A stretch of 64,000 nt of DNA. Source: Krasilnikoviella flava (lineage in GTDB: Bacteria; Actinomycetota; Actinomycetes; Actinomycetales; Cellulomonadaceae). The stretch spans positions 124,001-188,000 of the forward strand of contig NZ_FUZQ01000003.1 in NCBI RefSeq assembly GCF_900167525.1. Reading direction: 5' to 3'. The notes beneath the pieces are model-generated. The model saw only the letters and a list, made by a program, of their open reading frames with translations, ran no database searches and was not told where the DNA came from. Position 1 is the first letter of the stretch. Every line of letters starts with the position of its first letter. Made by a program: the position numbers and the translations under genes. Positions 6,903-24,532 of the stretch are shown one piece after another.

Positions 6903-8114
6903 TTACCCGACCCGGGCGCGGGCGTACCCGACGGCCACGCCGGCCCCGGCGAGGGCGAACCCCGCCCACGCCCAGCCGCCGTCGGCGAGGGGGCCGGCGA
7001 GCATCGCGCCGACGACCGACGAGCCGACCACGCCGCCGACGGCGAGCGCCAGCCCGTTGACGCCGAACCGCGTGGCGACGGACGCGGCGGGCGCCCCCGC
7101 GGCGACGACGGCGCTCATCGCGGGCTGGAACACCATCTGCCCGAGGGTGAACACGACCATCCCTGCCACCAGCGACGCGACGCCCGGACCGCCGCCGAGG
7201 ACGGCGATGCCCGTGCCCATGAGCGCGACGCCGAGGGCGAGCACGGCGGGCATCCGTAGCCGCGCCTGGAGCCACCGCGTCACGGGCACGGTGGTCGTGA
7301 GGACGAGGACGGCGACCGCGGCGTACACCGCGCCGACGCCCACGCTGCTGCCGAGCACGGCATCCAGCCGCAACGGCACGACGAGCTGCAGCTGCGTGAA
7401 GATCGCCCACGCGCCCGCGTTGAGCAGGCACAGGAGAACGAGCGCGCGGCGCGCCTCGCGCCGCATCCCGCCGCTCGGCGACGGTGCGGGCGTCGCGGGC
7501 TCGGCGGCCGGGACGGCGGGAGGCCCGGCGTCGGGCTCCGCCGCCCGCCCGAGCCCCCACCAGGTGAGCGGTGCGGCGACGAGGAACAGCCCGGCCGCGA
7601 CCCAGCACACGACGTCGAAGCCGGTGGCCACGAGCAACCCGCCGAGCAGCGGCCCGACGACGAACCCGGCGTTGCTCAGCGCCTCGCGCCGGGCGAAGAC
7701 GTCGGGTCGGGCGCCGCCGAGCCGCGCGTAGGCGGCGTAGGAGGCGGGGTGGAAGAGGGCCCCGCCGAGACCGACGGCGACGCCGGCGGCCCCGACCGCG
7801 AGCGGCGTCGTCGCGAGCGCGAGCGCCCCGAAGCCCGCCGCACGCACGAGCACGCCCGCGACGATGGTGCGGCGCACGCCCCACCGGTCCGCGAGGATGC
7901 CGGCGGGGAGCTGCAGCCCCTGCTGCGCCCCGGCGCGGACCCCCGCGAGCAGCCCGACCAGCGCCAGCCCGAACCCGAGCCCGTCGGCCAGGTGCACGGC
8001 GAGCAGCGGCACCAGCACGTAGAAGCCCGTCGCCATGACGAACGTGTTGGCGTACAGGGCGGGCATGGCGCCGCGGGGCGGGGTCCGCCCCGCGGCGTCG
8101 TCGGGGGAGGTCAC
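6903..8114 (-). CDS. major facilitator superfamily transporter, end of the polysaccharide operon
   Basis: About 403 residues with roughly twelve hydrophobic segments and the MFS loop motif GILADRWGVRRT between helices 2 and 3. The GTG at 8114 overlaps the TGA of the CE7 esterase gene as GTGA, implying translational coupling; an ATG at 8066 is a shorter alternative. As the last gene of the lyase operon it could move released acetate, monosaccharides or unsaturated oligouronides. Its close relatives are annotated as drug or sugar efflux carriers, so direction and substrate are open. It ends in TAA near 6903, with no clear terminator hairpin in the following 94 bases. Confidence 0.85.
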   Translation of the reverse strand: MTSPDDAAGRTPPRGAMPALYANTFVMATGFYVLVPLLAVHLADGLGFGLALVGLLAGVRAGAQQGLQLPAGILADRWGVRRTIVAGVLVRAAGFGALALATTPLAVGAAGVAVGLGGALFHPASYAAYARLGGARPDVFARREALSNAGFVVGPLLGGLLVATGFDVVCWVAAGLFLVAAPLTWWGLGRAAEPDAGPPAVPAAEPATPAPSPSGGMRREARRALVLLCLLNAGAWAIFTQLQLVVPLRLDAVLGSSVGVGAVYAAVAVLVLTTTVPVTRWLQARLRMPAVLALGVALMGTGIAVLGGGPGVASLVAGMVVFTLGQMVFQPAMSAVVAAGAPAASVATRFGVNGLALAVGGVVGSSVVGAMLAGPLADGGWAWAGFALAGAGVAVGYARARVG

Positions 8115-9091
8115 CGGGGGCCGAGCACCCCCGCGAGCGCCGCGAGCTTGCGCGGCATGTCGTACGCCGCGCCGCCCTCGTGCCCGTTGTACGGGAAGAC
8201 CTCGATCTGCGCGGGCCCGCCGTAGCGGTGGTAGGCCGCGAAGACGGTGGACGGCGGGCAGATCTTGTCCATCAGCGCCACGGAGAACCATCCGGGGCAG
8301 CGGGCGCGGGCGGCGAAGTTCGTGGCGTCGAAGTACGACAGCGTGCGCATCACCTCCTCGACCTCGAACCGGTGGCCCTTGAGGTAGCGGGCGATCTCGG
8401 CGTACGGGCCCTCGTCGGTGATCTGCGACGCGCGCCGGTAGTGGCTGAGGAACGGCACGTCGGCGATCATCCCGGCGAGGTCGTCGCGCAGGCCGGCGAC
8501 GGCGAGCGCGAGCCCGCCGCCCTGGCTGCCGCCGAGCACCGCGACCCGGGCCGGGTCGACCTCGGGCAGCGCCTTGACGGCGTCGACGGCGCGCACGGCG
8601 TCGGTGACGAGGCGGCGGTAGTAGTGCTTGGCCGGGTCCTCGATGCCGCGGGTGAGGAAGCCGGGCGACGACGACCCGTGGCCCTCGGGCGCGACGTCCG
8701 GGGTGTCGGCGGTGGTCTTGCCGCCGCCGCCCTGGCCGCGGTTGTCCACCACCAGGTGCGCGTACCCGGCCGCGGACCATGTGAGCCACTCCCACGGGAC
8801 GCCGCGCCCGCCGTTGTACCCGATGTACTGGACGACGGCGGGCAGCGGCCCGCTGCGCTCGCGCGGCAGCAGCAGCCACGCCTTGATGGGCTGGCCGGCC
8901 CACCCGGAGAACGTCACGTCGCGCACCTCGACGCCTCCGAGCCCGGCGTCGAACGGCACCGACTCCGGCTCGGAGGCGGCGGCCGCCGCCTCGTCGAGCG
9001 TCTGCTTCCAGAACGCGTCGAAGTCCGCGGGCTCCTCGGGCTCCGGGCGGTAGGCACGCAGGTCGTCGAGGGGCTTGTCGAAGAAGGCCAT
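8111..9091 (-). CDS. CE7-family acetyl (xylan) esterase / cephalosporin-C deacetylase
   Basis: 326 residues, the normal CE7 length, with no signal peptide and therefore probably cytosolic. The alpha/beta-hydrolase nucleophile elbow GGSQGG lies near residue 190. The later MDKICPPSTVFAAYHRYGG and YNGHEGG segments carry the Asp and His of the triad and match CE7. CE7 enzymes remove acetyl groups from short acetylated sugars and oligosaccharides. AGGAG stands 10 bases before the ATG at 9091. In the middle of a lyase operon it most likely de-acetylates imported oligosaccharides, making it the second esterase of the locus. Confidence 0.9.
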   Translation of the reverse strand: MAFFDKPLDDLRAYRPEPEEPADFDAFWKQTLDEAAAAASEPESVPFDAGLGGVEVRDVTFSGWAGQPIKAWLLLPRERSGPLPAVVQYIGYNGGRGVPWEWLTWSAAGYAHLVVDNRGQGGGGKTTADTPDVAPEGHGSSSPGFLTRGIEDPAKHYYRRLVTDAVRAVDAVKALPEVDPARVAVLGGSQGGGLALAVAGLRDDLAGMIADVPFLSHYRRASQITDEGPYAEIARYLKGHRFEVEEVMRTLSYFDATNFAARARCPGWFSVALMDKICPPSTVFAAYHRYGGPAQIEVFPYNGHEGGAAYDMPRKLAALAGVLGPR

Positions 9092-9144
9092 GCGGGTTGC
9101 TCCTGGGTCGTGGTGGTGCGGGGACGGGTGGTGCAGGGGCCCGG

Positions 9145-10668
9145 TCAGGGAGCGGAGGGTCCGACGTCCGCCCGCTCGAGAGGCTGCCGGACGACGGGCG
9201 CGAAGGACACCTCGTCGGCGCCGACGTCGGGGCGCCGGTCACGGGGCTGGCCGTCCATGTCCTCGGTGAGGAACGGGTACCTCCCGACGGCTGTGTTCAC
9301 GTCCGGCCCGGGGCGCAGCCGCCACAGCCCGCCGGAGCGGACCAGCAGCGGGTCGACGACGCGCACCTCGCGCGGCGCGGCGTCGAGGCCGAGGGTCGCG
9401 GCACCGGTCGGGAACGCGACGTTGCCGGAGTACGTGATCCCGGCGGGCTGCTTGTGCTCCACGAACAGCGGCCCGGCGGAGCCGACGACGAGGTTGTCGG
9501 CCACGAGGGAGTCCACCGGCGGGTAGAGGTAGTTGGCGCCGACCTCGATGTTCGCGACGTTGTCCACGAACGTGTTGTGGACGACGGTCGCGCGGTGCAC
9601 GCGCCAGTGGGCCGACGTCGAGCCGGACCCGTCCACGTCGCCGCCGTCGATCTGCAGGGCGGCCGTGTACCCCGAGCCGGCGAGCCCTTCGAAGTAGTTG
9701 TCGAACACGACCTGGTCGTCGCCGTAGAGCCGCACGCCGCCCGTGCCCGGCTTGCCCTCGCCGAGGAAGAAGTTGCCCTGGATGACGTTGCGGTCCCCGC
9801 GCCGCGCGACGAACGCCCCCGCCGAGGTGCGCACGGTGTTGAAGCGCACGGTGTTGTCGTCGCTCTTGATCGAGACGATCTCCGGGTCGGAGTCGGTGTT
9901 CTCGAACAGGTTGTGCTCGACGACGGCGAACGAGCTCGAGTCGGACAGGGCCGAGACGCCGAGCCGGATCGCCTCGCCGCCGTTGACCGGCTGCGCCGGG
10001 CTGTCGGCGAACCAGTTGTGGTCGATCCGGTCGTGCTGGGAGATCTGCGTGGCGCCGCCGTAGACGGTGACGTAGTTGCCCATCAGCGTCTTGTCGTGGA
10101 ACGCGTTGTGGTCGATGCGGTGGTACCCGCTGCCCTCGCCGGAGATCTGCAGCCAGTGCCGCGACGACGTCGGGTCGGCGGGCGGCTCGAACCGCAGCGC
10201 CACGTCGTTGCGCGTGAACCGCACGTGCGTGGACGCGGTGATCTTCAGCGTGGTGGCGTTGCGCCAGGTCAGGCCGCGCACGACGACGTGGCTCGACCGG
10301 GCGACCTCCAGCTGGCCGCCGGTGACGACGGCGCCGCCGAGCGTCGCGGCCTCGACGACCACGGGCGCCTCCGCGGTGCCCGCCTTGTCGGCCAGCTTGA
10401 CCATCGTGTACTCGCCGTCGGCCAGCACGATGCGGTCGCCGGGCAGCGCCGCCTTGAACGCGGCAGCGAGCTCGGCGCTGGTGCTCACGGGGACGGTGCG
10501 CAGCGGCGCGGGCTCGGCGTCCTCCCCCGCGGCGGCGGCCGGGCCGCCGGACGTCGCGGCGTCGGCGGGCACCGGGGACTGCGCGGAGCCGGCGGCGGTG
10601 GCGGGCGTCGCAGCGCCCAGGGACAGCCCGACGGCCAGGACGAGAGGCAGTGCGAGGTGCTTCTTCAT
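9145..10668 (-). CDS. PL6-family (alginate lyase / chondroitinase B-like) secreted beta-helix lyase
   Basis: 507 residues. A Sec signal peptide is visible (MKKHLALPLVLAVGLSLG, then an AxA-type site near residue 26), followed by a right-handed parallel beta-helix. Family hallmarks are NGGEAIRLGVS (~residue 225) and SDPEIVSIKSDDNTVRFNTV followed by an R-rich turn (~255-290); in chondroitinase B the Lys and Arg of this region and nearby acidic residues act as base, acid and calcium ligands. PL6 enzymes cleave alginate or dermatan sulfate by beta-elimination. The gene lies 25 bases after PL8 and 53 before CE7 on the same strand. Substrate choice between alginate and glycosaminoglycan is not decided by the motifs. 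Confidence 0.88.
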   Translation of the reverse strand: MKKHLALPLVLAVGLSLGAATPATAAGSAQSPVPADAATSGGPAAAAGEDAEPAPLRTVPVSTSAELAAAFKAALPGDRIVLADGEYTMVKLADKAGTAEAPVVVEAATLGGAVVTGGQLEVARSSHVVVRGLTWRNATTLKITASTHVRFTRNDVALRFEPPADPTSSRHWLQISGEGSGYHRIDHNAFHDKTLMGNYVTVYGGATQISQHDRIDHNWFADSPAQPVNGGEAIRLGVSALSDSSSFAVVEHNLFENTDSDPEIVSIKSDDNTVRFNTVRTSAGAFVARRGDRNVIQGNFFLGEGKPGTGGVRLYGDDQVVFDNYFEGLAGSGYTAALQIDGGDVDGSGSTSAHWRVHRATVVHNTFVDNVANIEVGANYLYPPVDSLVADNLVVGSAGPLFVEHKQPAGITYSGNVAFPTGAATLGLDAAPREVRVVDPLLVRSGGLWRLRPGPDVNTAVGRYPFLTEDMDGQPRDRRPDVGADEVSFAPVVRQPLERADVGPSAP

Positions 10669-10693: not shown

Positions 10694-13168
10694 TCAGACG
10701 AACGACGCGGTGACGGTGGCGCCGGCCAGGCCGGCGGTGGCGGCGACGATGCGCCAGCCCGCCCCCTGTCGGGTCACGGTGACGCCCGGGTCGGCGGACA
10801 CGAACCGCAGCCCGTCGCGGTTCAGGTCGACGACGACCTGGTCCCGGGTCTGCGTGGGGTCGCTCACCGCGACGGTGGTGGGCCGGGTCCACTCGGTGAC
10901 CCCGGACTCGTGCACGACGACGGACGCCGGGCCGTCGGCGTGCAGCGCCCCGCCCTCCCCGGGCACCCCGGCGCCGACCGGGACGGACGCGGGCGCCCAG
11001 AAGTTGGCCGCGAGCGTGCCGCCGAGCGCGACGGCGTGCACGTCGGCGTCCTGCCCGAGGATCCGCAACCCGTCGGCGGTGCCGCAGGCCTCCGCGAACG
11101 CGCGGGTGCCGTCCGGGTCGGCGGCCGGGAGCATGACGTAGGCGTAGGTCGCGTCCGCGGGGGCGGCGCCGTGGTCGAGCCACGCCGTGACGTACGGGCG
11201 GGTCACCGGGGTGTCGGTGCCGTACTTGATGTTGATCTCGCGCCACGTGTGCGTGCGGTCCTCGCGCAGGGCGTGCAGCCGCGCGCCGTCCGGGAAGACG
11301 TAGCCGGCCGTGCCGGACAGGTGGCACCAGCGCACGTCGTCGAGCGTGGCCGACCAGCCGTTCCCGATCCCCTGCGCGACGCCGTCGACGACGAGCGCGG
11401 CGCCGTCGCGCACCTTGCGGTTCTCCACGACCGTCTCGACGCCGCCCGCCGCGGGGGCGGTGATGCCGGAGCCGACGCAGACCACGGCGTCGTCGATGAG
11501 GAACCAGCTCTTGCGCGCCCGCAGGTCGGACCCGCGGGCGCGCAGGTCCTGCCCGTACGCGCCGACCGTGGCGCCGGGCACCGCGGCCCCGCCCACCCAG
11601 GTCGCCTCGCTCGTCTCCCGGAAGTTCGCGCTGTTCGCGAGCCGCGCCGTGTCGACGGTGGTGCCGGGCAGGCGGTACGCATCGACCGTGGGCCAGTAGT
11701 CCTCGCTGTAGTGGCCGAGGTCGTCCGTGTACAGCAGCACCATGCCGTCGGACAGGTGCCAGCCGTGCAGATTCTCGTTCTGGATGGACTCGTAGTTGTA
11801 CACGCGGGCCGAGTACCCGCTGACGCTCACCGCGAAGCCCGGCCGGTGGTGCACCGCCTTGTCCATCGCCGGGTACTGCCGGTGCGCGACGAGCGCGCCG
11901 CGCGGCGTCGGCGAGGCGGCCAGCAGGGCGTTCGCGGCCACGACCGACGCGGGCGTGGTAGCGGCGAGGAAGTCGCGGTAGGTGTCCTCGGTGATCCACT
12001 GCGCCACCAGCGACGTCAGGGTCGCCGCCAGCGTCTCGGGGGCGGAAGGGATGAGCCGCAGGGTGCCCTCGATCACCGTCTGGGTGGCCGCGTGCCCCTG
12101 CTTGCTGGGCCGCGCGATCTCGCGCCCGCACACCGACGCGACCATGTCGCCGCGCACCATGAGCGGGTCGAAGGCGTCGGTGACCCAGGCGTAGACGTTC
12201 GCCAGCGCCGGGTCGGTGACCTGCCAGGGCGAGTCGCCCAGCAGGTGCAGCAGCGACGACAGCGTGCCCAGCAGCTCCTTGCCGTAGCCGCCGTTGTACG
12301 GGTGCTTCCAGTGCTGCAGGAACGAGCCGTCCCGGAAGAAGCCCTCCCCCGTGCCCTCGCCCTCCGCGGTGCCGCCGTCGACGAACGCCAGCACGCTGTT
12401 GGCGCCCCCGCCGTCGACGTCGCTCAGGGCGTCGCGCACCCGCAGCAGCGCAGCCTCGTCGCCGTCCAGCGACGCCCGCACGGCGACGACCGTCGCGATC
12501 CACACCCGGTTGGCGCCGGTGGCGATCTGCCGGTCGGCCCGCCACAGGTTCGGGTCGGGCGTGTAGTGGTCGATGGCGGCCGTGCTGCGGGCGAGCGCGT
12601 CGCCCAGGTGGGTGCGCAGCACGACGAGCGTGTCCGCCAGGGCCGACGCCGAGCCGATCTCCCAGTCCCAGTCGTTGTCGAAGCGCGGGATCCCGGGGCC
12701 GTAGACGTGGTCGTGCATCCACGTGATGCCGTCCGCGACCGCGTCCGCCACGGCGGCGTCGCCCGCCACCGACGTGCCCGGCGTCGCCCACGCGACGGCG
12801 ATCGAGCGCAGCCGCTTGAACGTCGTGGTGACGGTGTTGGACCTCGTCCAGTCGCCCAGGTCGGGCCACAGGGACGCCCGCCCGGCGGACGGGTCGAGCG
12901 TCGCGAGGACGGTCGTGGCGGCCCGGTCGACGCGTCGCACGGCGGCGGCGACGTGCGCGTCGGCCAGGTCCAGGCCCGGGCCGCCGGTCTGCAGCACGGC
13001 CCAGCGCTCCACCAGCTCCGTGGTGGTCGAGGCGGGCGTCGCCCGGGCGGGCAGCGGCAGGGCCGGGGCGAGCGCGGCGGCGCCGGCGAGGGCGCCGAAG
13101 CCGCGCAGCACGGACCGGCGGCTGGGCGCGGTCGCCCGGTGGGCAGGCATGGTCGTGTCGTTCTCCAT
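10694..13168 (-). CDS. PL8-family polysaccharide lyase, Tat-exported
   Basis: 824 residues. The N-terminus has a twin-arginine signal (SRRSVLRGFGALAG, then a hydrophobic stretch and ARA). An alpha/alpha-toroid follows, then beta-sandwich domains, as in hyaluronate, chondroitin AC and xanthan lyases. The catalytic segment SFLQHWKHPYNGGYG (~residues 280-295) supplies the His and Tyr, an Asn lies in NRVWIATV upstream, and GREIARP (~350) carries the Arg. The start is the ATG at 13168, with AGAGGG six bases before it. PL8 also includes a mannuronan lyase described from a marine fungus, so alginate is possible beside hyaluronan or xanthan. Confidence 0.9.
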   Translation of the reverse strand: MENDTTMPAHRATAPSRRSVLRGFGALAGAAALAPALPLPARATPASTTTELVERWAVLQTGGPGLDLADAHVAAAVRRVDRAATTVLATLDPSAGRASLWPDLGDWTRSNTVTTTFKRLRSIAVAWATPGTSVAGDAAVADAVADGITWMHDHVYGPGIPRFDNDWDWEIGSASALADTLVVLRTHLGDALARSTAAIDHYTPDPNLWRADRQIATGANRVWIATVVAVRASLDGDEAALLRVRDALSDVDGGGANSVLAFVDGGTAEGEGTGEGFFRDGSFLQHWKHPYNGGYGKELLGTLSSLLHLLGDSPWQVTDPALANVYAWVTDAFDPLMVRGDMVASVCGREIARPSKQGHAATQTVIEGTLRLIPSAPETLAATLTSLVAQWITEDTYRDFLAATTPASVVAANALLAASPTPRGALVAHRQYPAMDKAVHHRPGFAVSVSGYSARVYNYESIQNENLHGWHLSDGMVLLYTDDLGHYSEDYWPTVDAYRLPGTTVDTARLANSANFRETSEATWVGGAAVPGATVGAYGQDLRARGSDLRARKSWFLIDDAVVCVGSGITAPAAGGVETVVENRKVRDGAALVVDGVAQGIGNGWSATLDDVRWCHLSGTAGYVFPDGARLHALREDRTHTWREINIKYGTDTPVTRPYVTAWLDHGAAPADATYAYVMLPAADPDGTRAFAEACGTADGLRILGQDADVHAVALGGTLAANFWAPASVPVGAGVPGEGGALHADGPASVVVHESGVTEWTRPTTVAVSDPTQTRDQVVVDLNRDGLRFVSADPGVTVTRQGAGWRIVAATAGLAGATVTASFV

Positions 13169-13253: not shown

Positions 13254-14585
13254 TCAGCCCAGCAGGGCGCGGCGCGTGACCGCGGCGGCCATCGCGGCCG
13301 CGCCGGCGGGCGCGGGGTGCAGGCCGTCGCCGCTGTCGAAGGCGGGCGCCAGCCGCGCCCGGTCGGCCGGGTCGGCGAGGGCGGACGCCACGTCGGCGAC
13401 GGCGTCGAACGCCCCGGTGCCGCGGCCTGCCTCGGCGAGCAGCGTCGCGTTGACGACCCGACGCTCCTCCTCGAGAGCGGGAGTCCAGCGCTGCCAGTCG
13501 CCGAAGGGGGTGATCGTGGTGCCGACCACCCGCAGGCCCCGGTCGCGGGCACGCAGGACGAGCTGGCGGTAGCCGGCGAGCAGCACGGCGGGGTCGGTCT
13601 GGCTGGGCGGCTGCTGCAGGTCGTTGACGCCGAGCACCACCAGCAGGGTGTCGATGCCGGGCAGGGCCAGGGCGTCGCGGTCCAGGCGCGCCTGGCCGCT
13701 CGGGCCGAACCGCTCGTCGTCGAGCAGCACCCGGTTGCCGCTGATGCCGAGGTTCGCGACGCCGACCGGTCCGCCACGCTCGGCGAGGCGACGCGCGAGG
13801 TGGTCGGTGAACCGCTCGTCGGCGTCGTCGGGCGTACCCACGCCCTCGGTGATCGAGTCGCCCAGCACGGCGACGCCCGGGACGCCGGGACGCTCGACGT
13901 CGACCCCGACCAGCAGCACGGCCGACCTCGTCGTCTCCGCGCCGTCGAAGCCGGGCCCCACGTCGGCGGTGAGGTCGCCCGCGCCCACGTAGCCCGTCGC
14001 ATGCGTGTTGCGGTGGAAGCTCAGGGGGCCGGTGGGGCCCGGCAGGTGCACGCTGACGACGAGGTCGCCGCCGTCGGGCACGCCGAGCTCCGCCGGGTCG
14101 CTGACCAGCGTCGCGCCCGCGGCGAGCAGGGCACCACGCTCGCCGCCGAAGGTGAGCGTCGTGACGGTGGCCGGGTCCACGGCGGCGCCCGCCCCGGCGA
14201 GCCCCGCCGCGCGACGCGCGACGGTGACCGCTCCGACGCGGACCGGGGTCGCCGAGAACGTGCCCGCCAGCCGCACGCGCAGCGCTCCTGCCCGGCCGGT
14301 CCCCGTGCTGAGCCGCAGCACGTGCCGCACCGTGCGGTCGGTGACGCCGCCCACCACCAGCGGGTCGGTGGCCGTGGGCCGGGTGTGCGCGGTGGTCCAC
14401 GACGGCACCCACGACGTGGTGCGTGTCCGGGCCGTGGCGGTGTCCGCGAGCGCCGGGCCCTCGTCGAGCGCCGCGGCGCGGGGCGCGAGGAGCAGCGCGC
14501 CGGTGGAGGCGAGCGCCCCGGCGAGCAGCGACCGCCGCCCGACGGCGCCGGGGCGGGACAGGGCCTGTGCGGTGGTGCCGGTCAT
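13254..14585 (-). CDS. SGNH/GDSL hydrolase, probable carbohydrate esterase, Tat signal
   Basis: 443 residues. The N-terminus contains GRRSLLAGALASTGALLLAP, a twin-arginine export signal. A beta-rich region (~residues 60-210) is followed by the SGNH core: VLGDSITEGVG (block I with the Ser), NLGISGNRVL (blocks II/III region), VVLGVNDLQQ (GxND) and GDGLHPAPAG (Asp and His of the triad). Two-domain SGNH proteins of this design are often acetyl- or acyl-esterases acting on polysaccharides. Its ATG overlaps the stop of the YesL-like gene (ATGA), so it belongs to the operon. Together with CE7 it suggests an O-acylated substrate. Confidence 0.85.
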   Translation of the reverse strand: MTGTTAQALSRPGAVGRRSLLAGALASTGALLLAPRAAALDEGPALADTATARTRTTSWVPSWTTAHTRPTATDPLVVGGVTDRTVRHVLRLSTGTGRAGALRVRLAGTFSATPVRVGAVTVARRAAGLAGAGAAVDPATVTTLTFGGERGALLAAGATLVSDPAELGVPDGGDLVVSVHLPGPTGPLSFHRNTHATGYVGAGDLTADVGPGFDGAETTRSAVLLVGVDVERPGVPGVAVLGDSITEGVGTPDDADERFTDHLARRLAERGGPVGVANLGISGNRVLLDDERFGPSGQARLDRDALALPGIDTLLVVLGVNDLQQPPSQTDPAVLLAGYRQLVLRARDRGLRVVGTTITPFGDWQRWTPALEEERRVVNATLLAEAGRGTGAFDAVADVASALADPADRARLAPAFDSGDGLHPAPAGAAAMAAAVTRRALLG

Positions 14586-15211: not shown

Positions 15212-17319
15212 CGCTCGCCCCGGGCCGGGAGCACGGCGGTGACCTCGGCGTCGCCGTCGAGCAGCACCTGGCCGTCGAGCTCGACGCGCCGGGCCCCGAC
15301 GACGGCGACCCGGTCGCCCGCGACCAGCACCGCGCGCGCCAGCGCCGTCACGCCGTCTGCCTCGATCGCGCCGTCCGGCCCGGCGAGGTACACGCGCTCG
15401 CCGCCGCCCAGGTCCACCCCGACCTCCATGGTGAGCGGGCGGGGCAGGCGGACGGTGGAGGGCGTCGGGCCGAAGGCGTCGAACGGCTCGATCGTGGTGA
15501 CGGCGAGCAGGTCGCGGGCGGCGGGCGGCGTGACGCGCAGCGTGTGCAGCCGCCGCGTCACGACCAGCGACGGGGTGCTCGACGTCGGGTTGGCCTCGAC
15601 GTCGGTCACGACCTGCTCGGCGCGGGCGCCGCCGGCGGCGTGGGTCGTGAGCCACGCGCCCGCACGGCCGTTCCGCAGCACGCGCCGCACGACGCCGTCG
15701 TCCGCTCCGTCCCCGAGGCCGTCGTGGGGCACGTCGCGGTCGACCGTCTCCGTGGGGTGGTCGGCGTGCAGCAGCACCGTCCACTCGCGCGGCTCGGCGG
15801 CCCGCCCGCGGTCGACGACGACGGTGCGCCCGGAGGGCAGGACGACGAGCGTGCGCTCCAGCGACTCGACGCCCAGCTCGGCCGGGTACATCCGCCCGAT
15901 GCGGGCGCGGCCGTGCAGGAACCCGCCCTCAGCGAGGACGTCGACCATGTCGGCGGTGCGGTCCGGCGGGGCGTCGGCGTAGACGTGGTACCGCCCCTCC
16001 CCCGCGAAGCCCTGCCCGTCGACGAGGACGAGGTTGTGGTGCCCGGCCCGCTTCTTGTTGGAGTACCCCTCGTCGACCAGCAGCCACGCGCCGCGCGACG
16101 CGAGCACGAACGACCCGGCGTCCGGGTGGTGATGGCCGGCGCTGAGGGTGTCCCAGCCGCGCTCGGCGTCGATCCGCCGCGACGTGTCCCAGGCCGTGTG
16201 CCCGCCACCGGGCGACGACTTGAACGACACGAGCGTGGCGTCGTCGTCCCACGACGTGCGGTGCACCAGCAGCCCCAGGTCCTCGAACGCCGCCTGCGCG
16301 GGGACGGACGTGGCCGGGTCGACCGGCGCCACGGACGCGTCGTACCAGAGCAGCTCGGCCCAGGCCTCGGGCAGCACGCCGGGCTTCACGCCGCTCTCGT
16401 ACGCCTCGCGCCAGAAGAAGCGCCTCGCCACGGTGTCGGCCAGCCACTGCGCCTCGCCGATCCCGTACCGCGACGCGAGGATCCGGTACAGCGCCACGCT
16501 GTGCCCGCTGCGCCGGTCGTGGCAGTCCCCGTGGTCGACGATCTCCTCGTAGCCCGGTGCGGCCTGGTGCAGCCGGTAGAAGAACGTGCGGGCCAGGAAC
16601 CGGCACCGGTCCCACCAGTCCACGCCCTCGGCGTCGTGCAGCAGGTCGAGGTAGGTGGCGAGCCACGGCACGCCGTAGCGCCAGTAGACGACGCCCTCCA
16701 TGTCGGAGCCGTCGGCGGGCAGCACGTCGACGACGGTGGACATCGCCGCCTTGGCCCGCTCCGTCCAGGCCGGCACGCCGAGCGCGTAGCCGGCGGTCGC
16801 GAGGCCGGTGTGGCAGATCCAGTGGTGGTTCTGCCAGTACGAGCTGCTCCACCAGCCGCCCTCGCTCGCGACGGCGAAGTCGAACAGCCGCTCCCCCTGC
16901 AGCGCGAGCTTGGCGCGCAGCGTTTCCCGCCGCTCCGGGTCGAGGTCGTCGCCCAGCCAGGAGTACGCCAGCGACAGCCCGTGGAGGATCCACCCGGCGT
17001 CGAGGTCGTGGTCGGGCAGGTGCGCGCGGCCCCAGTGCTCGAAGGACACGGCCGCCGAGATCCAGCGCCACGCCTCCTCCAGGTAGTGCCGCTGGCCCGT
17101 GAGCCGGTAGGCCAGCGCGAGGTTCGCGGCCGCCGGGCCCAGGTACGTGATGCTCGCGAGCGGGTGCTCCGCCGGCGGCGCCGTGCGCCGGTACAGGTCG
17201 CACTGCTCCGCCAGGCGGCGCCACTGCGGCGCCAGGTCGCCGTCCAGCCGGGAGCGCAGGTCGGCCAGCCGGGCGTCGTCGAGCAGCAGCATCCGGGTGG
17301 TCGCGACGACGTCGGTCAT
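15208..17319 (-). CDS. heparinase II/III-family lyase, cytosolic (first of two)
   Basis: 703 residues, no signal peptide. The N-terminal half is an alpha/alpha-toroid (residues ~1-350) with [14 protein letters not shown] near residue 165 and [14 protein letters not shown] near 265. The C-terminal half carries the heparinase II/III beta-sandwich with [12 protein letters not shown] near residue 395 and [10 protein letters not shown] after it. These His, Tyr and Asn clusters correspond to the base/acid and metal positions of PL15, PL17 and PL21 enzymes. It would split imported unsaturated oligouronides exolytically. ATGA overlaps join it to the DUF624 and second heparinase-like genes. The CAZy family is not assignable by eye. 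Confidence 0.85.
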
Positions 17320-19274
17320 GCCATCGCCTCCGGCAGGGCGTGGACGTGGACCGCCCCGTCCGCGCGGAGCACCCGCACCTCCGCGGCGTCGAGCTCGACG
17401 CCCGTCACGTCCGCACCGCCCCCGCGCGCGTCGACGTCCGCCTGGTACACCGACACCCACGTCGCGGACGTCGCGCCCTCGGCCGCCCAGTCCACGTGCG
17501 CACGCTCGCGCTGCGGGTCGTCCGCCGGGCCCGGCCCGGGGAGGACGACGGCGCGCACGGGCACGGGTCCGTCGGTCCCGGCGCCGTCCGGCCCGGCGGC
17601 GCCGGCGGCGTGCACGCCGTCGAGCGCCTCGGCGCCCAGCCAGGCCGTGCGCACGACGTCGCCGTCCACGCGCACCCCGAGCGGCACGTCGGGCCGCAGC
17701 CCGAGCACCAGCCGCCTCGGCCGGTCGGCGCGCGCGTGCACGACGTCGAGCAGGTAGCCGTCGCCGAGGACGACGTGCCGCACGGCGCGGGCGCCGTCGT
17801 ACCAGGACGTCGCGTCTCCGCGGACCTCGACGGTCAGCGACCGCTCGTCGCGGGCCAGCAGCCGCCCGGTCGCCTCGGCGGGGTCGGCGTCGTCGACGCG
17901 GACGACCGGGTGGGCGGCGGCCGACGCGTAGTGCGACCGCCAGGCCGGGTGGCCGTACGGCACCTGGCCCGGGTCGGGCTGCCACGGGGTGCTGCGCCCG
18001 AACAGGGCGAGCGCGAGCTTGTCGTGGTGCCCGTGCCCGGCGCCGTGCGGCCCGTGGTCGAGCACGGCGTGGATCCCCGCCCCGCGCAGGACGGCGATCC
18101 CCACCTCCTCGTCGAGGCTCACGGCGGGGCGCGGCGGCCGCGCCACCGCCAGCGGCGGGGCGGCGAACCAGCCCGGCGCCATCCGGCGCAGCTCGTCCTC
18201 GAGGCCGTCCGCCCCCTCGTCGTCGCCGTCCCCTGCCGCCGCCTCCGTGCGGGCGTGCGCGGCGACCGCGGCCAGCCCGGCGTCGGCGACGAAGCCGTCG
18301 GCCAGCGCGGCCAGCTCCGTCCACTCGAGCGCGAGGGCCGGGCGGGAGTACGGGCCGTCGTGCACCGACGGCAGCACGCCGCCATCGGTCGCGAGCCCGG
18401 CCAGCACGTCGACCATCGCGACGAGCCGGTCACGGGCGTCGGCGGGCAGGTCTGTGGGGTCGGTGCCGCGCAGGGACAGGAGATAGGCCCGCACCACGAA
18501 GCCGTGGTAGTACGTGCTGGCCTCCCACTCCCAGCCGCCGCGGGTGCTGGCGGCGAGGGCGTGGGCGAGCTGCCCGTGCTCCCCCGACAGCCACTCGTCG
18601 CCGGCGACGGCGGGCGCCTGCCGGTCGCCGCGCACGAGCGCGGCCGCCCGGCTGCACACCCGCCCGGCGGCGTTCAGCCAGGCGGTGTAGTTCGACGTGA
18701 AACGTCCGTCGTCCACGAGCCGCCCCCGGGCGGCGCGGGCCGCCTCGGCGGTCGCGTCGAGCATCCCCAGCACGGGGACCAGGTCGCCCGCGCGGTCCGG
18801 GTCGGCCTCCGCGAGGGACCACACCGCGTGCCCGATCGACACGGCCCAGATGGCGTCCGTGAGCGCCTGGTGGAACAGCCTCCCGCGCAGCATCCAGTCC
18901 TGCGCGCGCTCGTGCTCGCCCCCGCCCGCGACCTCCGCGTACACGTCGGCGTAGCCCACCAGCAGGGCCACCGCCTCTGCCCGCGCCGCCGCGTCCCCGG
19001 TCCGGGCCGCCCGGTGCGCCAGCACCCGCGCCCGCCGCGCCCACGCCTGGTGGCTGAGCACCAGCCAGGCGCCGCGCACGAGCTCGGTGTCCACCGTGCA
19101 GCCGTGCGGGCACCGCACGCCGCCGACGGGCGGCACCGGCCCGGGGATCCCCGCGTGGGAGAGCTCTGTGCCGTGCGTCGGGCAGACGAAGTCGTGCCAC
19201 CAGCCGCCGCGCTGACGGGGCAGCCCGGCCGCGACAGCGCCGGCGGGGAGGGGGACGGGGGCGAGGGAGGTCAT
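17316..19274 (-). CDS. heparinase II/III-family lyase with N-terminal Cys/His cluster (second of two)
   Basis: 652 residues, no signal peptide. Residues ~30-63 form a CPTHG...CPHGC cluster that could bind zinc. The toroid holds [11 protein letters not shown] (~200) and [15 protein letters not shown] (~250), and the beta-domain signature [16 protein letters not shown] is near residue 405. It differs strongly from its neighbour, so the pair did not arise by recent duplication and probably splits different linkages or chain ends. The start overlaps the SDR stop as ATGA. Activity as an oligouronide lyase is inferred from family and context. Confidence 0.83.
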
Positions 19275-20035
19275 CGCGGCCAGGTCCCCCCGTCGATGTC
19301 GAGGGTGGTGCCGGTGATGTACGACGCCTCGCGCGAGGCCAGGTACTGCACCGCCGCGGCGACGTCCTCGACGGTGCCGGGGCGCCCGACCGGGGTGCCC
19401 GCGACCATCTTCTGCTGCGCCTCGTCGGTGCTGAACGTGCCGTGGAACGCCGTGTCCGCGATGTAGCCGGGGGCCACCGCGTTCACCGTGACGCCCTGCG
19501 GGCCGAGCTCCTTGGCGAGGCCCTTGACGAAGCCACGCACGGCCGCCTTCGCCGCCGCGTACACGACCGATCCCGGCCCGCCGCCGTTGTGCGCCGCCAG
19601 CGACGACACCGCGACGATCCGCGGCCGGTCCGACTCGCGCAGGTGCGGGATCGCGGCCCGGCAGGTGCGGAACGTGGCGCCGAGGTTGACGTCGACCACG
19701 GCCTGGTAGTGGTCGTCGCTCATCTCCGCCACGGGCACGCGCCCCACCAGGTGGCCCGCGTTGCACACCACGACGTCGAGCCCGCCCAGGAAGGCGACCG
19801 CGTCCTCGACCAACCGGTCGACGTCCTCGGTCGACGTGACGTCGGCCTGCAGCGCGACCGCCTTGCGGCCGAGCGCCTCGATGTCGGCCACCGTCCGTGC
19901 GGCCGCGTCGGCCGAGCTGCCGTAGTGGACCACGACGTCCGCCCCCGCGGCCGCCAGGCCGAGCGCGACACCGCGCCCGATCCCGTGCCCCGCGCCCGTG
20001 ACGAGCACCTTCGCGTCCGTCATGTCCATCGCCAT
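19271..20035 (-). CDS. short-chain dehydrogenase/reductase, candidate uronate (DEH/KduD-type) reductase
   Basis: 254 residues. The Rossmann signature TGAGHGIG (~residues 13-20), NAG (~92), the catalytic Ser in [10 protein letters not shown] and the YAAAKAAV Tyr/Lys pair (~160) show an active classical SDR, with the usual C-terminal [17 protein letters not shown] precedes the ATG at 20035. In alginate or glycosaminoglycan pathways an SDR reduces 4-deoxy-5-hexoseulose uronate to 2-keto-3-deoxygluconate or acts as KduD; its place between importer and lyases fits this. FabG-like or other sugar dehydrogenase activity cannot be excluded. Confidence 0.85.
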
Positions 20036-20076: not shown

Positions 20077-21006
20077 TCACTTGATGCCCGCGTTCGCGAA
20101 GCCGCGGACGAAGTACTTCTGGCCGAGGAGGAAGAGCACCACCATCGGCAGGGTCGCCAGCGTGGTGCCGGCCATGAGGAACGCCCACTGGGTGTCGTTC
20201 TCCGTGCGGAACACCGACAGGCCCACCTGGATCACGCGCATCGAGTCGGTGCGCGTCACGAGCAGCGGCCACAGGAAGTTGTTCCAGGAGCTCTCGAACG
20301 TCAGCAGCCCCACGGTGATGAACGCCGGCTTGACCAGGGGCGTCATGATCCGTGCCCAGATGCCGAGCTCGCTCACGCCGTCGAGCCTGGCGGCCTCCTC
20401 CAGCTCCACCGGCAGGTCGAGGTAGAACTGCCGGAACAGGAAGACGGCGAACGGCGTCACGGCGCCGGGCACGATGAGCGCCCACCAGGTGTCGAGCCAG
20501 CCGGTGCCGCCCTGCCCGAGGATGTCGTTGCCCCCGAACAGCGGCATGAACCGCACGATGAGGAACTCGGGGATGATCTTCGTGTAGGTGGGGATCATCA
20601 GCGCCGCGACGAACCCGAGGAACACCAGCTCCGAGCCGCGGAAGCGCAGCCGGGCCAGCGCGTAGCCCGCCATCGACGCGACCAGCAGGTTGATGGTCGT
20701 GTGGCTCACCGCGATGACCAGGCTGTTGCGCGCGTAGGTGAGGAACGGCGCCGCGGCGAGCGCGTCGGCGTAGTTGCCCCACGCCCACTCGGTGGGCAGG
20801 AACGTGGGCGGGCTCGCGGCGATGTCCGCCGGCGTCTTGAGCGACGTCAGCACCATCCACACGAACGGCACCACCATGACGACGGCGATGACGCTCAGGG
20901 CCACGTAGAGGGCGGCCCGCGAGAGCCGGCGGCGCGACGCCGGGGAGCGGCCGACGACGTCGAGCGAGGTGCGCGGCGAGGTCGCGGTGAGATCAATGCC
21001 GGCCAC
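20077..21006 (-). CDS. carbohydrate ABC importer permease (MalG type)
   Basis: 309 residues, six membrane segments. The EAA loop (EEAARLDGVSELGIWARIMTP) near residue 210 contacts the ATPase. It ends FANAGIK, typical of MalG/LacG-type subunits. The start is a GTG at 21006, with GGAGG five bases upstream, and overlaps the MalF-type gene by 14 bases. No ATPase gene follows in the operon, so the importer probably uses a shared MsmX/MsiK-type ATPase encoded elsewhere, as is common in Gram-positive bacteria. Confidence 0.92.
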   Translation of the reverse strand: MAGIDLTATSPRTSLDVVGRSPASRRRLSRAALYVALSVIAVVMVVPFVWMVLTSLKTPADIAASPPTFLPTEWAWGNYADALAAAPFLTYARNSLVIAVSHTTINLLVASMAGYALARLRFRGSELVFLGFVAALMIPTYTKIIPEFLIVRFMPLFGGNDILGQGGTGWLDTWWALIVPGAVTPFAVFLFRQFYLDLPVELEEAARLDGVSELGIWARIMTPLVKPAFITVGLLTFESSWNNFLWPLLVTRTDSMRVIQVGLSVFRTENDTQWAFLMAGTTLATLPMVVLFLLGQKYFVRGFANAGIK

Positions 21007-21943
21007 TGTCGCCTCCGTTGAGCCGTCGGTTCGCGAGGGTCAGGAGCAGCAGGAAGACGAACAGGATGATCGACTGGGCGCACGCGTAGCCGACGCGGAA
21101 CTCCCGGAACGCCGACTTGTAGATCTCGTACGTCATCATCGTGGTCGTGTTCGCCGGACCGCCGTCCGTCAGGATGTAGATGAGGTCGAACGCCTGGAAG
21201 GCGGAGATGACCGAGGTGACGAAGACGAAGAACGTGGCGGGCTTGAGCAGCGGCAGCGTGATGCTGAAGAACTGCCGGGTCTTCGACGCCCCGTCCACCG
21301 AGGCCGCCTCGTAGACGTCCTTCGGCAGGGACTGCAGCGCCGCCAGGTAGATGAGCATCTTCAGGCCGATGCCCTGCCAGATGCCGACGACGATCACCGA
21401 CGGCATCGCCCACGTGGTCGACGACAGCCAGTTCTGCGCCGGGATCCCGAAGAAGCCGAGCACGGCGTTCAGCAGGCCGTTGCGCGGGTCGTAGATCCAC
21501 AGCCACACCAGCGCGACGGCGATGGTCGCGGTCACCTGCGGGATGAACACGGCGGTGCGGAACAGCGCCCGGGCGCGCAGCTGGGTGTCGAGCATCAGCG
21601 CGATGAGCAGCGCGATCCCCATCGCGACCGGCACGGTGAAGAACGCGTAGACCAGCGTGTTGACCATGCCCCGGCGGAACACCGGGTCGGTCAGCGCGTC
21701 CACGTAGTTCTGGATCCCGGTGAACCGCGGCTGCGTGAGCACGTCGTAGTTGGTGAACGACAGCACGAACGCGGCGATCACGGGGATGCCGATCCAGATC
21801 AGGGCGTGCAGGAACGCCGGCGCCACCATGAGCATCCCGGCTCGGCGCCGGGCCCCGCCCGCCCGCCGGCGCCGGGGCGCGGGCGAACGGGGCGGGGTGG
21901 CAGGTGGTGCGCTCACGTCGCGCGGCGCGGAGACGACGGCCAC
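20993..21943 (-). CDS. carbohydrate ABC importer permease (MalF type)
   Basis: 316 residues with a basic N-terminal tail and six membrane helices. The EAA loop reads YEAASVDGASKTRQFFSITL (~residues 215-235). It pairs with the MalG-type subunit to form the membrane channel for the oligosaccharide brought by the lipoprotein encoded just upstream. The start is a GTG at 21943 after GAGGGGG; the next plausible start lies far inside the first helix. The substrate is inferred to be an unsaturated oligouronide because the genes that follow are lyases. Confidence 0.92.
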   Translation of the reverse strand: MAVVSAPRDVSAPPATPPRSPAPRRRRAGGARRRAGMLMVAPAFLHALIWIGIPVIAAFVLSFTNYDVLTQPRFTGIQNYVDALTDPVFRRGMVNTLVYAFFTVPVAMGIALLIALMLDTQLRARALFRTAVFIPQVTATIAVALVWLWIYDPRNGLLNAVLGFFGIPAQNWLSSTTWAMPSVIVVGIWQGIGLKMLIYLAALQSLPKDVYEAASVDGASKTRQFFSITLPLLKPATFFVFVTSVISAFQAFDLIYILTDGGPANTTTMMTYEIYKSAFREFRVGYACAQSIILFVFLLLLTLANRRLNGGDSGRH

Positions 21944-21994
21944 GACGACCCCCTCTTCCTCGGTGTGACGGTCACGGTCATGGGGCGGGCCGGG

Positions 21995-23278
21995 TCACAG
22001 GCGGGCGATCGCGTCGTTCGCGATGCCGGCGAGCTGGTCGATGGCCTGCTGGGCGGTCTGCTGCCCGACGATCGCCGTCTCGAGGGTCGGCTTGATCTTC
22101 TCCCGGATCTCCATCCAGGCCGGGGTGCCGCCCTCGGACCGCGCCTTGCCGAGGTTCTCCAGCGCGAACGCGACCATGGGGTTGCCCTGGACGTACTCGC
22201 TGTCCTTGAGGTCCGAGATCGCCGGGACCGAGCCGCGCTGCTCGCTCGCCACCAGGACCGGGTCCGGCGAGCCCAGGAACTCGACGAGGGCGCGCGCGGC
22301 GGCGGGGTTCTTGCTGGTGGCCGACTGGGAGACCATCGTGCCGCCCTGCAGCATCGCCGGGTCGGTGTTGCCGAGCACGAACGTGCCGATCTTGTCGATC
22401 AGCTCGGGCGACTGCTGCTCCAGCTGCACGTACAGCGAGTTGTTCGTCATCATGATCGCCGAGGTGCCCTGCTGGAGGGTGGTGGGCTGCCCGGCCTCGG
22501 TGGTGAGGGCGAAGTCGGCCGAGCCGTCCGCCATCATGTCGAGGAAGAGCTGCAGCGACGCGACGCCCTCGGGGCTGTCGAAGAGCACCTCGCGGCCGTC
22601 GGCGGAGAAGAGCTCGCCGGAGTTGCCGAACAGGAACGTCTCCCAGCACTGGCGCAGGTCGATGGAGAACGGGTCGAAGCCCACGCGGGTGACCTTGTCG
22701 CCCTCCTTGACGGTGAGCTGCTTCGCGATCTCACGCAGCTCGTCCCAGTTCTTCGGGGTGTCCTTGATGCCGGCTTCCTCGAAGAAGTCCTTGCGGTACG
22801 CGACGATGCGCGTGTCCAGCACCATCGGCAGGGCGTAGAGCTTGCCGTCGAACCGCGACGGCTCCAGCACCCGCTCCTCGTACGTGTAGCGCGTCGCGAG
22901 CGACTCGGGCAGCGGGGCGATCGCGTTCTTGAAGGCGAACGGCGGGATCCAGCCGACGCCCAGCGTGACGACGTCGGGCATGAGCCCGCTGGCCAGGCCG
23001 GTGGTGATCTTCTCGTTGAGCGACCCGTAGTCGGTGTAGTCGACGGTGACGTTGACGTCCGGGTACTTCTCGTTGAACTGCTTGAGCAGTTTGCCCTCGA
23101 GCGTGTCCTTGCCGGTGGCGCCCTCGAACAGCGCGCACAGGAAGGTGATGTCGCCCTCCACCGGTCCGGTGGGGTCGGCGGCGGACGAGCCGCTGGGGCT
23201 CGTCGTGGCACAGCCCGCGACGGCGGCCGCGGTTCCGAGGCCCATGGCCGTGAGGAAGCTGCGACGGCTGAATTCCAT
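21995..23278 (-). CDS. extracellular solute-binding lipoprotein of the polysaccharide locus, Tat type
   Basis: 427 residues, SBP_bac_1 family. The N-terminus MEFSRRSFLTAMGLG combines a twin-arginine motif with a lipobox (AVAGC), so the folded protein is exported by Tat and anchored by the Cys near residue 23. The mature part has the usual two-lobe layout, including PEGVASLQLFLDMMADG and KNPAAARALVEFLGSPD. AAAGG lies nine bases before the ATG at 23278. It is the first gene of the 16-kb operon, directly downstream of the promoter and LacI-type operator, and delivers oligosaccharides to the two permeases. Confidence 0.93.
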   Translation of the reverse strand: MEFSRRSFLTAMGLGTAAAVAGCATTSPSGSSAADPTGPVEGDITFLCALFEGATGKDTLEGKLLKQFNEKYPDVNVTVDYTDYGSLNEKITTGLASGLMPDVVTLGVGWIPPFAFKNAIAPLPESLATRYTYEERVLEPSRFDGKLYALPMVLDTRIVAYRKDFFEEAGIKDTPKNWDELREIAKQLTVKEGDKVTRVGFDPFSIDLRQCWETFLFGNSGELFSADGREVLFDSPEGVASLQLFLDMMADGSADFALTTEAGQPTTLQQGTSAIMMTNNSLYVQLEQQSPELIDKIGTFVLGNTDPAMLQGGTMVSQSATSKNPAAARALVEFLGSPDPVLVASEQRGSVPAISDLKDSEYVQGNPMVAFALENLGKARSEGGTPAWMEIREKIKPTLETAIVGQQTAQQAIDQLAGIANDAIARL

Positions 23279-23337
23279 GACAAGCCCTTTCGATCGGCGT
23301 TGATCTGGCGAAGGCGTGGGGAGTCGACCTCGACTCC

Positions 23338-23353
23338 GGTGTAACGATGCACC
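23338..23353. promoter_or_regulatory. candidate LacI-family operator O1 of the polysaccharide operon
   Basis: GGTGTAACGATGCACC is an imperfect dyad (12 of 16 positions symmetric) centred on CG, the arrangement used by LacI-family repressors. It covers the predicted start of transcription of the lyase operon (about 23348). Its right half GATGCAC recurs in O2 at 23417-23432. The two together suggest a consensus RGTGCATCGATGCACY. Binding by the adjacent LacI protein is inference. Confidence 0.6.
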
Positions 23354-23354
23354 G

Positions 23355-23383
23355 ACCATAGGGGCGGGTGTGACCGGCGTCAA
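23355..23383 (-). promoter_or_regulatory. housekeeping-type promoter of the polysaccharide operon
   Basis: Read on the minus strand, TTGACG (23383-23378) and TATGGT (23360-23355) are separated by exactly 17 bases. This is a near-consensus sigma-70-type promoter that would start transcription about 70 bases before the solute-binding protein gene and directly into operator O1. Confidence 0.65.
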
Positions 23384-23399
23384 GCGTGAATTGATGCCC

Positions 23400-23432
23400 T
23401 ATGATCGGCGCCAGACAGTCCATCGATGCACT
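23400..23432 (+). promoter_or_regulatory. lacI-type gene -10 box and operator O2
   Basis: TATGAT at 23400-23405 is a good -10 element for the regulator gene; no convincing -35 precedes it. The sequence AGTCCATCGATGCACT at 23417-23432 is an almost perfect 16-base dyad (14 of 16) with a CG centre and shares its right half with O1. Its place just after the start of transcription suggests autorepression. Confidence 0.6.
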
Positions 23433-23476
23433 GGACGGTGGGCGGAGTCCGGAACCGGAGGAGGCCGCACGGAAGC

Positions 23477-24532
23477 ATGGCTGGCATCACGATCCTGGAC
23501 GTGGCGCGCGCCGCCGGCGTGTCCACGAGCACCGTCTCGAACCTGCTGAACGGGCGCACCGGCCGCATGCTGCCCGAGACCCGCGAGCGCGTGGAGTCCA
23601 CCATCCGCGACCTCGGCTACCGGCCCAACCGCGCGGCGCGCCAGCTCCGCACGGGCAAGCCGCAGGTCATCGGCCTCGTCGTGCCGTCCGTGGGCAACCC
23701 GTACTGGGGTGCGCTCGCCCGGTACCTCGAGGCCGCCGCGCTCACCGAGGGCTACCACGTGCTGCTGTGCAACTCCGAGCGCGACCCGGCGCGCGAGCGC
23801 CAGTACGTCGACGAGCTGGTCTCCGACGGCATCCGCGGCATCGTGCTGTGCTCCTCGCTGCCGTCGCTGGAGCACGTGTCCGGGCTGATCGAGGACGGGC
23901 TGCGCCTGGTCGCCTTCGACCGCACCGCCCAGGCCGACGACCCGGTGGGCCTGGTCAACGTGAGCGTGGACAACACCATCGGCGCCGAGCTCATGGGCGA
24001 GCACCTGGTGTCCCTCGGCCACCGCAGGATCGCGTTCGTCTCCGGGGCGATCCGGTCGGTCAACCGCACCGAGCGGTTCGCGGGCTTCCTGCGCGCGCTC
24101 GAGCGGGCCGGCATAGCCCGCCCGGACGTCGTCACCTGGCCGGGCAGCAGCAGCGCCGACGGGACCTTCGGCGACGTCGAGGCCGCGGAGCTGGGGCGGG
24201 TCGCGGCCACGGAGCTGCTCACCGGCCCGAACCCGCCCAGCGCCATCTTCGCCGTCAACGACATGACCGCGATCGGCGTCTGCCGCGCCGTGCGCGACGC
24301 CGGCATGGAGGTGGGCCGGGAGGTCTCGGTCGCCGGCTTCGACGACATCGTGCTCGCCGAGCTCTACTCGCCCCGGCTCACGACGGTGCGCCAGCCGATG
24401 AAGGAGATGGCCGCGGCCGCCTTCCGCGCGCTGCACGCCCCCGCCGACGGGCAGCCGACGTCGCAGGCGACGTCGCTGCTGTTCCGGCCGGAGCTCGTGG
24501 TGCGCGACTCGACGGCCGCCCCGGTCGCCTGA
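23477..24532 (+). CDS. LacI-family transcriptional regulator of the polysaccharide locus
   Basis: 351 residues. The N-terminal helix-turn-helix (ILDVARAAGVSTSTVSNLLN, residues ~5-25) and hinge (LGYRPNRAARQLRTGK) are followed by a periplasmic-binding-protein-like effector domain (GLVVPSVGNPYWG; ... DLR-type end PRLTTVRQPMKEM). It is divergent from the lyase operon, with two candidate operators between them, so it is most likely a repressor relieved by an oligouronide or its breakdown product. The ATG at 23477 is chosen because the HTH begins five residues later; a frame upstream to 23426 lacks homology. Confidence 0.93.
   Translation: MAGITILDVARAAGVSTSTVSNLLNGRTGRMLPETRERVESTIRDLGYRPNRAARQLRTGKPQVIGLVVPSVGNPYWGALARYLEAAALTEGYHVLLCNSERDPARERQYVDELVSDGIRGIVLCSSLPSLEHVSGLIEDGLRLVAFDRTAQADDPVGLVNVSVDNTIGAELMGEHLVSLGHRRIAFVSGAIRSVNRTERFAGFLRALERAGIARPDVVTWPGSSSADGTFGDVEAAELGRVAATELLTGPNPPSAIFAVNDMTAIGVCRAVRDAGMEVGREVSVAGFDDIVLAELYSPRLTTVRQPMKEMAAAAFRALHAPADGQPTSQATSLLFRPELVVRDSTAAPVA

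Follow-up and report, generated by a model that had tools for sequence, protein, structure and literature searches.

Background

Which polymer is consumed by a gene set in which a PL8 lyase, a type usually annotated as a hyaluronate, chondroitin or xanthan lyase, stands with a PL6 lyase, two heparinase II/III-type proteins and two esterases? The question is posed by a run of genes in Krasilnikoviella flava that occupies positions 6903-24532 of the stretch analysed here (the window: 64,000 nucleotides, C6:124001-188000 of a 4.85-Mb genome). A gene for a LacI-family regulator lies opposite a minus-strand series encoding, in order, the solute-binding protein (SBP) and two permeases of an ATP-binding cassette (ABC) importer, a short-chain dehydrogenase/reductase (SDR), the heparinase II/III-type proteins HepA and HepB, a DUF624 protein, an SGNH esterase, PL8, PL6, a CE7 esterase and a major facilitator superfamily (MFS) protein. 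Every gene named in an earlier, sequence-only reading of this DNA (the initial annotation) was recovered with the family given there, by Pfam match and coordinates.

Our answer is that the run is, in all likelihood, an alginate utilisation locus, with a predicted overall route of extracellular endolysis, import, cytosolic exolysis and reduction. This reading, already put forward in the initial annotation, is built on enzyme kinship and genomic context. It is supported by the characterised PL8 relative Aly16-1, by genes for PL7, PL6, a PfkB-type kinase and 2-keto-3-deoxy-6-phosphogluconate (KDPG) aldolase that some sister loci carry, by an alginate-lyase-like CBM32 domain on another partner protein, and by the PL17- and PL15-type relatives of the cytosolic lyases. 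Many Streptomyces and other Actinobacteria possess the complete gene set, for which a likely substrate is thus proposed. The reading also places PL8 in an alginate pathway, so that the names assigned to these genes by automatic annotation are probably mistaken. What is new is the locus, with HepA, HepB and the beta-helix partners; alginate lysis by PL8 is already known, from Aly16-1 (PMC11596371) and from PsMan8A (PMC7911691). The remark in the initial annotation that the combination was not one already described fits our search of the open-licence literature, where no description of this actinobacterial locus was found among the matches listed.

The alginate systems of Sphingomonas sp. A1 and Agrobacterium share with this locus ABC import, a cytosolic heparinase II/III-type exolyase and an SDR that reduces 4-deoxy-L-erythro-5-hexoseulose uronate (DEH) to 2-keto-3-deoxygluconate (KDG). 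They differ in their PL5/PL7-type endolyases and PL15, whereas the window combines PL8 and PL6 with esterases, LacI control and two unlike lyases that have no visible signal sequence.

The PL8 lyase and Aly16-1

The PL8 protein (10694..13168, minus strand), predicted to be a secreted, mannuronate (M)-preferring endo-alginate lyase, carries the three Lyase_8 domains (N-terminal, middle and C-terminal). Residues N220, H286, Y295, R349 and R353, which we take to be the catalytic Asn, His, Tyr and Arg, are kept in all 12 aligned sequences. Its link to a characterised enzyme runs through the version of the locus in Streptomyces anulatus (L129). The forward cloning primer of Aly16-1 matches the PL8 gene of that locus without mismatch, at the start of the mature protein, and the reverse primer has one mismatch at the end of the gene (it is matched exactly in L075). 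Furthermore, five of the six domain-edge residues reported for Aly16-1 agree at a single offset in L129, against at most four of six in seven other locus PL8 proteins tried. By these comparisons, the S. anulatus protein is very probably near-identical to Aly16-1.

According to the available text of its report, Aly16-1 is a secreted, endolytic, M-preferring PL8 alginate lyase of Streptomyces sp. CB16, with activities of about 15,284 U/mg on polymannuronate (polyM), 2,134 U/mg on alginate and 438 U/mg on polyguluronate (polyG), and is less than 30% identical to characterised PL8 enzymes, PsMan8A included (PMC11596371). That text concerns the enzyme, and the term "gene cluster" is absent from it (PMC11596371). 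The link to the present locus is the match of the primers to the PL8 gene of its Streptomyces version. The window PL8 differs in being about 60% identical to the S. anulatus protein (59% by BLAST), so that its specificity could have shifted. To a second PL8 of its own genome (L148:7781-10321, C7) it is 31-32% identical. A further likeness is offered by PsMan8A of the fungus Paradendryphiella salina, a PL8 that acts on polyM in synergy with a PL7; it differs in being exolytic, fungal and a member of PL8 subfamily 4, as far as the available text goes (PMC7911691).

Conservation and versions of the locus

The survey covered the best 80 of 155 HepA relatives in named genomes, 70 of them actinobacterial and 10 from Paenibacillus; these loci are not independent, 28 of the 80 being of the PL8-type Streptomyces kind. 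An open frame of 100 residues or more counted as a gene when its best match, at E 1e-8, was the window protein in question, while PL7 and the kinase were counted at >100 bits, and the aldolase and BH_1565 (matches to one beta-helix protein) at >80 bits. HepA is rare. With the window's own genome counted, 5 of 18 congeneric genomes have it (E 1e-10), as do 9 of 396 from the order (E 1e-20) and 6 of 394 from the class; the HepA proteins of two named Isoptericola are 90-92% identical to that of the window. The grouping is beyond chance: 64 of the 70 actinobacterial loci have the entire core of eight genes (LacI, SBP, both permeases, SDR, HepA, HepB and DUF624), and the six incomplete ones (L063, L076, L087, L110, L120 and L128) all end at a contig end.

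Around this core the lyases vary. PL8 is present in 29 of the 70 loci (28 Streptomyces and one Isoptericola), accompanied by CE7 in 29, by the beta-helix protein BH_1565 in 27 and by SGNH in 25; the BH_1565 gene is not in the window's own locus. G733, a genome of the class, also has PL8, CE7 and SGNH. Nine of the 70 loci have PL7 beside the same core, and in none of them is PL8 or CE7 present; the example from L101 matches the solved polyguluronate lyase 1uai at 420 bits over 224 residues. Among the 18 genomes of the genus, PL7 occurs in one (G001), where two copies lie no more than about 10 kb from that genome's version of the locus. Five of the 70 loci contain PL6, and seven contain the beta-helix part of a protein that also has a CBM32. 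KDPG aldolase and/or PfkB kinase lie in the flanks of 16 of the 70, and in L064 PL6, KDPG aldolase and PfkB kinase stand together beside the locus. In Paenibacillus, both permeases (10 of 10 loci) and an SDR (9 of 10) stay with HepA, whose neighbours also include a two-component system and a DUF4962 protein of another kind; no HepB match was found in the ten loci.

A HepA tree, made by a quick method and with long-branch warnings, puts the window beside Microlunatus L088, in whose flank no PL8 was seen, and the Streptomyces PL8 loci. A single origin of the PL8 type is compatible with this tree (support 84), though not firmly. Isoptericola chiayiensis and strain AK164 have a different version, which groups with Cellulomonadaceae; Isoptericola therefore has two versions of the locus, which suggests transfer.

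Two kinds of beta-helix protein accompany the core in other genomes. One, a beta-helix/DUF1565 protein (L104:14016-15458), adjoins the core in the majority of the Streptomyces versions and has relatives in 37 of the 70 actinobacterial loci; the L104 protein is without a good solved relative (best E 8e-4) and is a candidate for a new alginate lyase or epimerase. The other combines a CBM32-type domain with a beta-helix (L112:15577-17529, L032:4529-6475, L037:10910-12808) and is encoded close to the core in other forms of the locus; for the L112 protein only the CBM32 has solved relatives, with those of alginate lyases first. We offer these two secreted partners, along with the two cytosolic lyase types, as candidates for study. 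Several of the PL7 versions are in genomes with marine-sounding names.

PL6, HepA and the SDR

The secreted PL6 lyase (9145..10668, minus strand) has the alginate lyase 7o84 as its best PDB match (175 bits, against 79 bits for chondroitinase B). Two of its residues, the Lys of SIKSDDN and the leading Arg of ARRGDRN, have identical counterparts in the alignment with 7o84, and presumably these are the catalytic residues of the right-handed beta-helix PL6 lyases. Signal sequences were judged by eye; they are of the twin-arginine type in PL8 and SGNH and of the Sec type in PL6, and none was seen in CE7, HepA or HepB.

HepA (17316..19274, minus strand; Pfam Hepar_II_III_C) lies nearest to the PL17 oligoalginate lyases, both by profile and by predicted fold, among the matches listed; the fold comparison was made via VIA-align, and a family not listed there is not thereby excluded. 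Although PL17 enzymes such as Alg17c are thus its best matches, HepA is 18% identical to Alg17c over 530 aligned residues, is without a visible signal sequence and has its own N-terminal CPxHG...C segment. The HepA and HepB profiles gave no convincing alignment with each other (hhalign probability 0.5%, E 0.11). The two appear to be distinct types of cytosolic lyase, neither firmly placed in a named family.

The SDR (19271..20035, minus strand; Pfam adh_short_C2) is a predicted DEH reductase. The carbonyl reductase 3afm/3afn, which we take to be the DEH reductase A1-R, is fourth among 16 distinct PDB sequences found at E 1e-40 or better. For the later steps, a PfkB kinase gene adjoins a KDPG aldolase gene in the window's own genome (L149), outside the run. 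Another KDPG aldolase gene, on C10, was considered as a partner and rejected, its neighbours being DgoK and an enolase-type dehydratase, so that it probably serves galactonate use. In L032 (2588-4395) and its relatives, an FAA-hydrolase-family gene with a PfkB kinase lies beside LacI; the FAA gene occurs in six of the 70 named loci and is a possible side route for keto-deoxy acids.

HepB as lyase or epimerase

HepB (15208..17319, minus strand) is a signal-less DUF4962/heparinase II/III-type protein by Pfam. Compared with solved structures, and in the direction from bacterial query to epimerase, its profile finds human dermatan sulfate epimerase (6hzn) at the top of all PDB chains (E 6e-29), followed by PL15 oligoalginate lyase (3a0o, E 3e-21) and PL35 (E 1e-14), and its single sequence already finds the human epimerase at E 6e-17. 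Seven residues do not vary among the 16 sequences compared: N164, H165, Y212, H396, H398, D416 and H428. H165 and Y212 align with what we take to be H205 and Y261 of the epimerase. HepB H396 aligns with the epimerase H450, as numbered in the available text of PMC8006597. These matches could mean that HepB works in the cytosol as a C5-epimerase on oligouronates taken up by the cell, leaving HepA with a single epimer, a role that would itself be compatible with alginate. The catalytic residues, however, are common to the epimerase and the lyases, as far as the available texts go (PMC8006597, PMC11921355). Moreover, the aligned metal positions, read from the alignment by eye, differ, being His/Asp/His in HepB (H398/D416/H428) and His/Glu/Asn in the epimerase (His452/Glu470/Asn481). 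Because of this difference, and because the PL15 alginate lyases are the next relatives, HepB is likelier to be a lyase; we consider the epimerase role improbable.

HepB shares the catalytic residues of its closest solved relatives, human dermatan sulfate epimerase 1 and the PL15/PL35 lyases, and differs from the epimerase in being bacterial and signal-less and at the metal positions. In the available text of the epimerase study, no bacterial protein could be found with the epimerase sequence alone (PMC8006597). If the relationship seen from HepB is true, it may help to trace the origin of the animal enzyme.

Two side observations concern HepB-like proteins. The window's own genome has a second heparinase II/III pair on C10 (L009:10624-15907), beside an SBP gene and a permease-like gene, with one member HepB-like at 24%; this is perhaps a further, different polyuronate locus. 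In Phytoactinopolyspora (L124:14634-18530) a protein of about 1,300 residues is encoded beside the core, and it is weakly HepB-like (21-22%) in the neighbourhoods from G613 and G590.

A proposed route for alginate

On the alginate reading, the secreted PL8 would cut M-M bonds in mannuronate-rich stretches, and the secreted PL6 would cut the remaining ones, most likely those containing MG or G (guluronate). The secreted SGNH esterase would strip O-acetyl groups that otherwise block the lyases. The unsaturated oligomers would be imported by the SBP lipoprotein (21995..23278; Pfam SBP_bac_1, 145 bits) and the two permeases (20993..21943 and 20077..21006; both Pfam BPD_transp_1), all on the minus strand. 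The ABC importer proposed in the initial annotation thus stands as regards these three components, whereas no gene for its ABC ATPase is in the run, and the power would come from an ATPase encoded elsewhere. In the cytosol, CE7 would take off leftover acetyl groups, and HepA and HepB would break the oligomers down to unsaturated monomers, whose ring opening yields DEH. Reduction of DEH to KDG would fall to the SDR, and the kinase, presumed to act on KDG, and the KDPG aldolase from elsewhere in the genome would complete the pathway.

Alternative substrates

Several observations weigh against alginate, and part of them would suit a glycosaminoglycan (GAG) locus for hyaluronan, chondroitin or dermatan, in which PL8 and a chondroitinase-B-like PL6 act outside and the heparinase-type lyases inside. 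Most of the PL8 family acts on GAGs, the PL6 protein fits the Pfam chondroitinase B model (Chondroitinas_B, 178 bits), the best solved relative of HepB is dermatan sulfate epimerase rather than a lyase, with PL35 GAG lyases matched too, and Aly16-1, in the available text, also cleaves hyaluronan and chondroitin sulfates as well as xanthan (PMC11596371). Yet the best match of PL6 is an alginate lyase, PL7 and kinase/aldolase partners occur in some sister loci, and the same text gives a stronger Aly16-1 signal on alginate than on its other substrates (PMC11596371). The initial annotation also held that GH88 and sulfatase are lacking, and this agrees with what was found: the single GH88 match in the genome, on another contig, reaches 20.5 bits against a cut-off of 26.6, and no sulfatase is among the locus genes scanned by Pfam, a genome-wide search not having been made. 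A GAG substrate is therefore, in our judgement, very unlikely. Xanthan, or another glucuronate-bearing exopolysaccharide, seems hardly credible at all, even though the solved structures nearest to PL8 are xanthan lyases (433 bits, against 358 for chondroitin AC), Aly16-1 acts on xanthan, and two esterases are present that could deacetylate such a polymer once PL8 is taken for a xanthan lyase. Glycoside hydrolases (backbone endoglycanase, mannosidases) were not found among the locus genes scanned, again with no genome-wide search made, and genome-wide no GH88 rises above the cut-off. The two cytosolic homopolyuronate-type lyases would be left without a clear role, and the PL7 and PL6 partners of other versions also argue against xanthan.

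Other points count against alginate itself. PL7 was expected in the window's own genome as support, and none was found. The single HepA sequence finds PL17 only at E 0.12, and its fold match to PL17 is tied by Z with heparinase III. The DEH reductase is not the nearest relative of the SDR, which falls below the cut-off of every NCBIfam model among the matches listed (n=25). Finally, the kinase and aldolase genes, like the ABC ATPase, are not in the window's run, and a kinase or aldolase gene was found in the fetched flanks of one of 29 PL8 loci, compared with 15 of the 41 others.

Esterases and the possible source of the alginate

Bacterial alginate is rich in M and O-acetylated. The SGNH esterase (13254..14585, minus strand; Lipase_GDSL_2, 88 bits) is a predicted acetyl esterase with a twin-arginine-type N-terminus, and CE7 (8111..9091, minus strand; Pfam AXE1, 353 bits) is an acetyl esterase by family. 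The initial annotation took the two esterases as a sign of an O-acetylated polymer, and the part of this that stands is an association: CE7 accompanies PL8 in 29 of 29 loci, compared with 4 of 35 full-core loci without PL8, and is in none of the nine PL7 loci. The bundle of PL8, CE7 and SGNH, with the M preference of Aly16-1, may fit an O-acetylated, M-rich bacterial alginate; on an association seen mostly within one genus, this could go either way.

Taking this further, we tentatively propose, as an idea not far short of an even chance, that the PL8-CE7-SGNH version is a dedicated actinobacterial system, present in many Streptomyces, which feeds on the O-acetylated, M-rich alginate of other bacteria, with two types of cytosolic lyase outside the named families, and is distinct from PL7 versions that would take algal alginate. 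It is also a serious possibility, short of probable, that the PL8 version targets algal alginate, with the esterases acting elsewhere or on sparse acetylation, which would leave alginate as the substrate. Brown-algal alginate is the classical substrate, and PL6 suggests G-containing stretches; the distribution of CE7 between PL8 and PL7 loci speaks against it, as does the likeness between M-rich, O-acetylated bacterial alginate and the M preference given for Aly16-1 in the available text (PMC11596371). The proposal makes it testable whether such actinobacteria consume the acetylated alginate of bacterial biofilms.

Control and remaining genes

The LacI-family regulator (Pfam LacI and Peripla_BP_3) would repress the run from one operator, GTCCATCGATGCAC (23418..23431, no strand assigned), which lies between LacI and SBP. 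Of the 79 loci surveyed (L062-L140), 65 had a usable region, and in 55 of these the interval holds the palindrome consensus GTGSATCGATSCAC with at most two mismatches, the consensus being derived from the same loci. Among 50 shuffles per locus, zero to four did as well, except in L091 (7) and L127 (15), and zero to five other segments of the same locus did as well, except in L127 (19 of 59). For the pattern GTSSATCGATSSAC, 23418-23431 is the one site without mismatch in the window's own genome. Three one-mismatch sites lie elsewhere: one within a uvrB-like gene (by eye), another where no gene was called, and the third at C10:871083. Since the putative operator overlaps the first ATG of the frame, which is open from 23426, LacI probably starts 17 codons later, at 23477 (23477..24532, plus strand).

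The genes for SDR, HepA, HepB, DUF624 and SGNH are linked consecutively by 4-base overlaps. The DUF624 membrane protein (14582..15211, minus strand) barely passes its Pfam model (24.7 bits, cut-off 24.2); such proteins often adjoin sugar ABC importers. The MFS protein (6903..8114, minus strand; Pfam MFS_1) has relatives in 18 of the 70 actinobacterial loci. The role of carrier given to it in the initial annotation was not borne out, its nearest model being that of MdtH efflux (PRK11646), which it matches at 139.7 of 469 bits, far below the cut-off. Just beyond the run, window positions 5197-6033 give a nearly full match to Pfam CAT (chloramphenicol acetyltransferase), at 229 bits.

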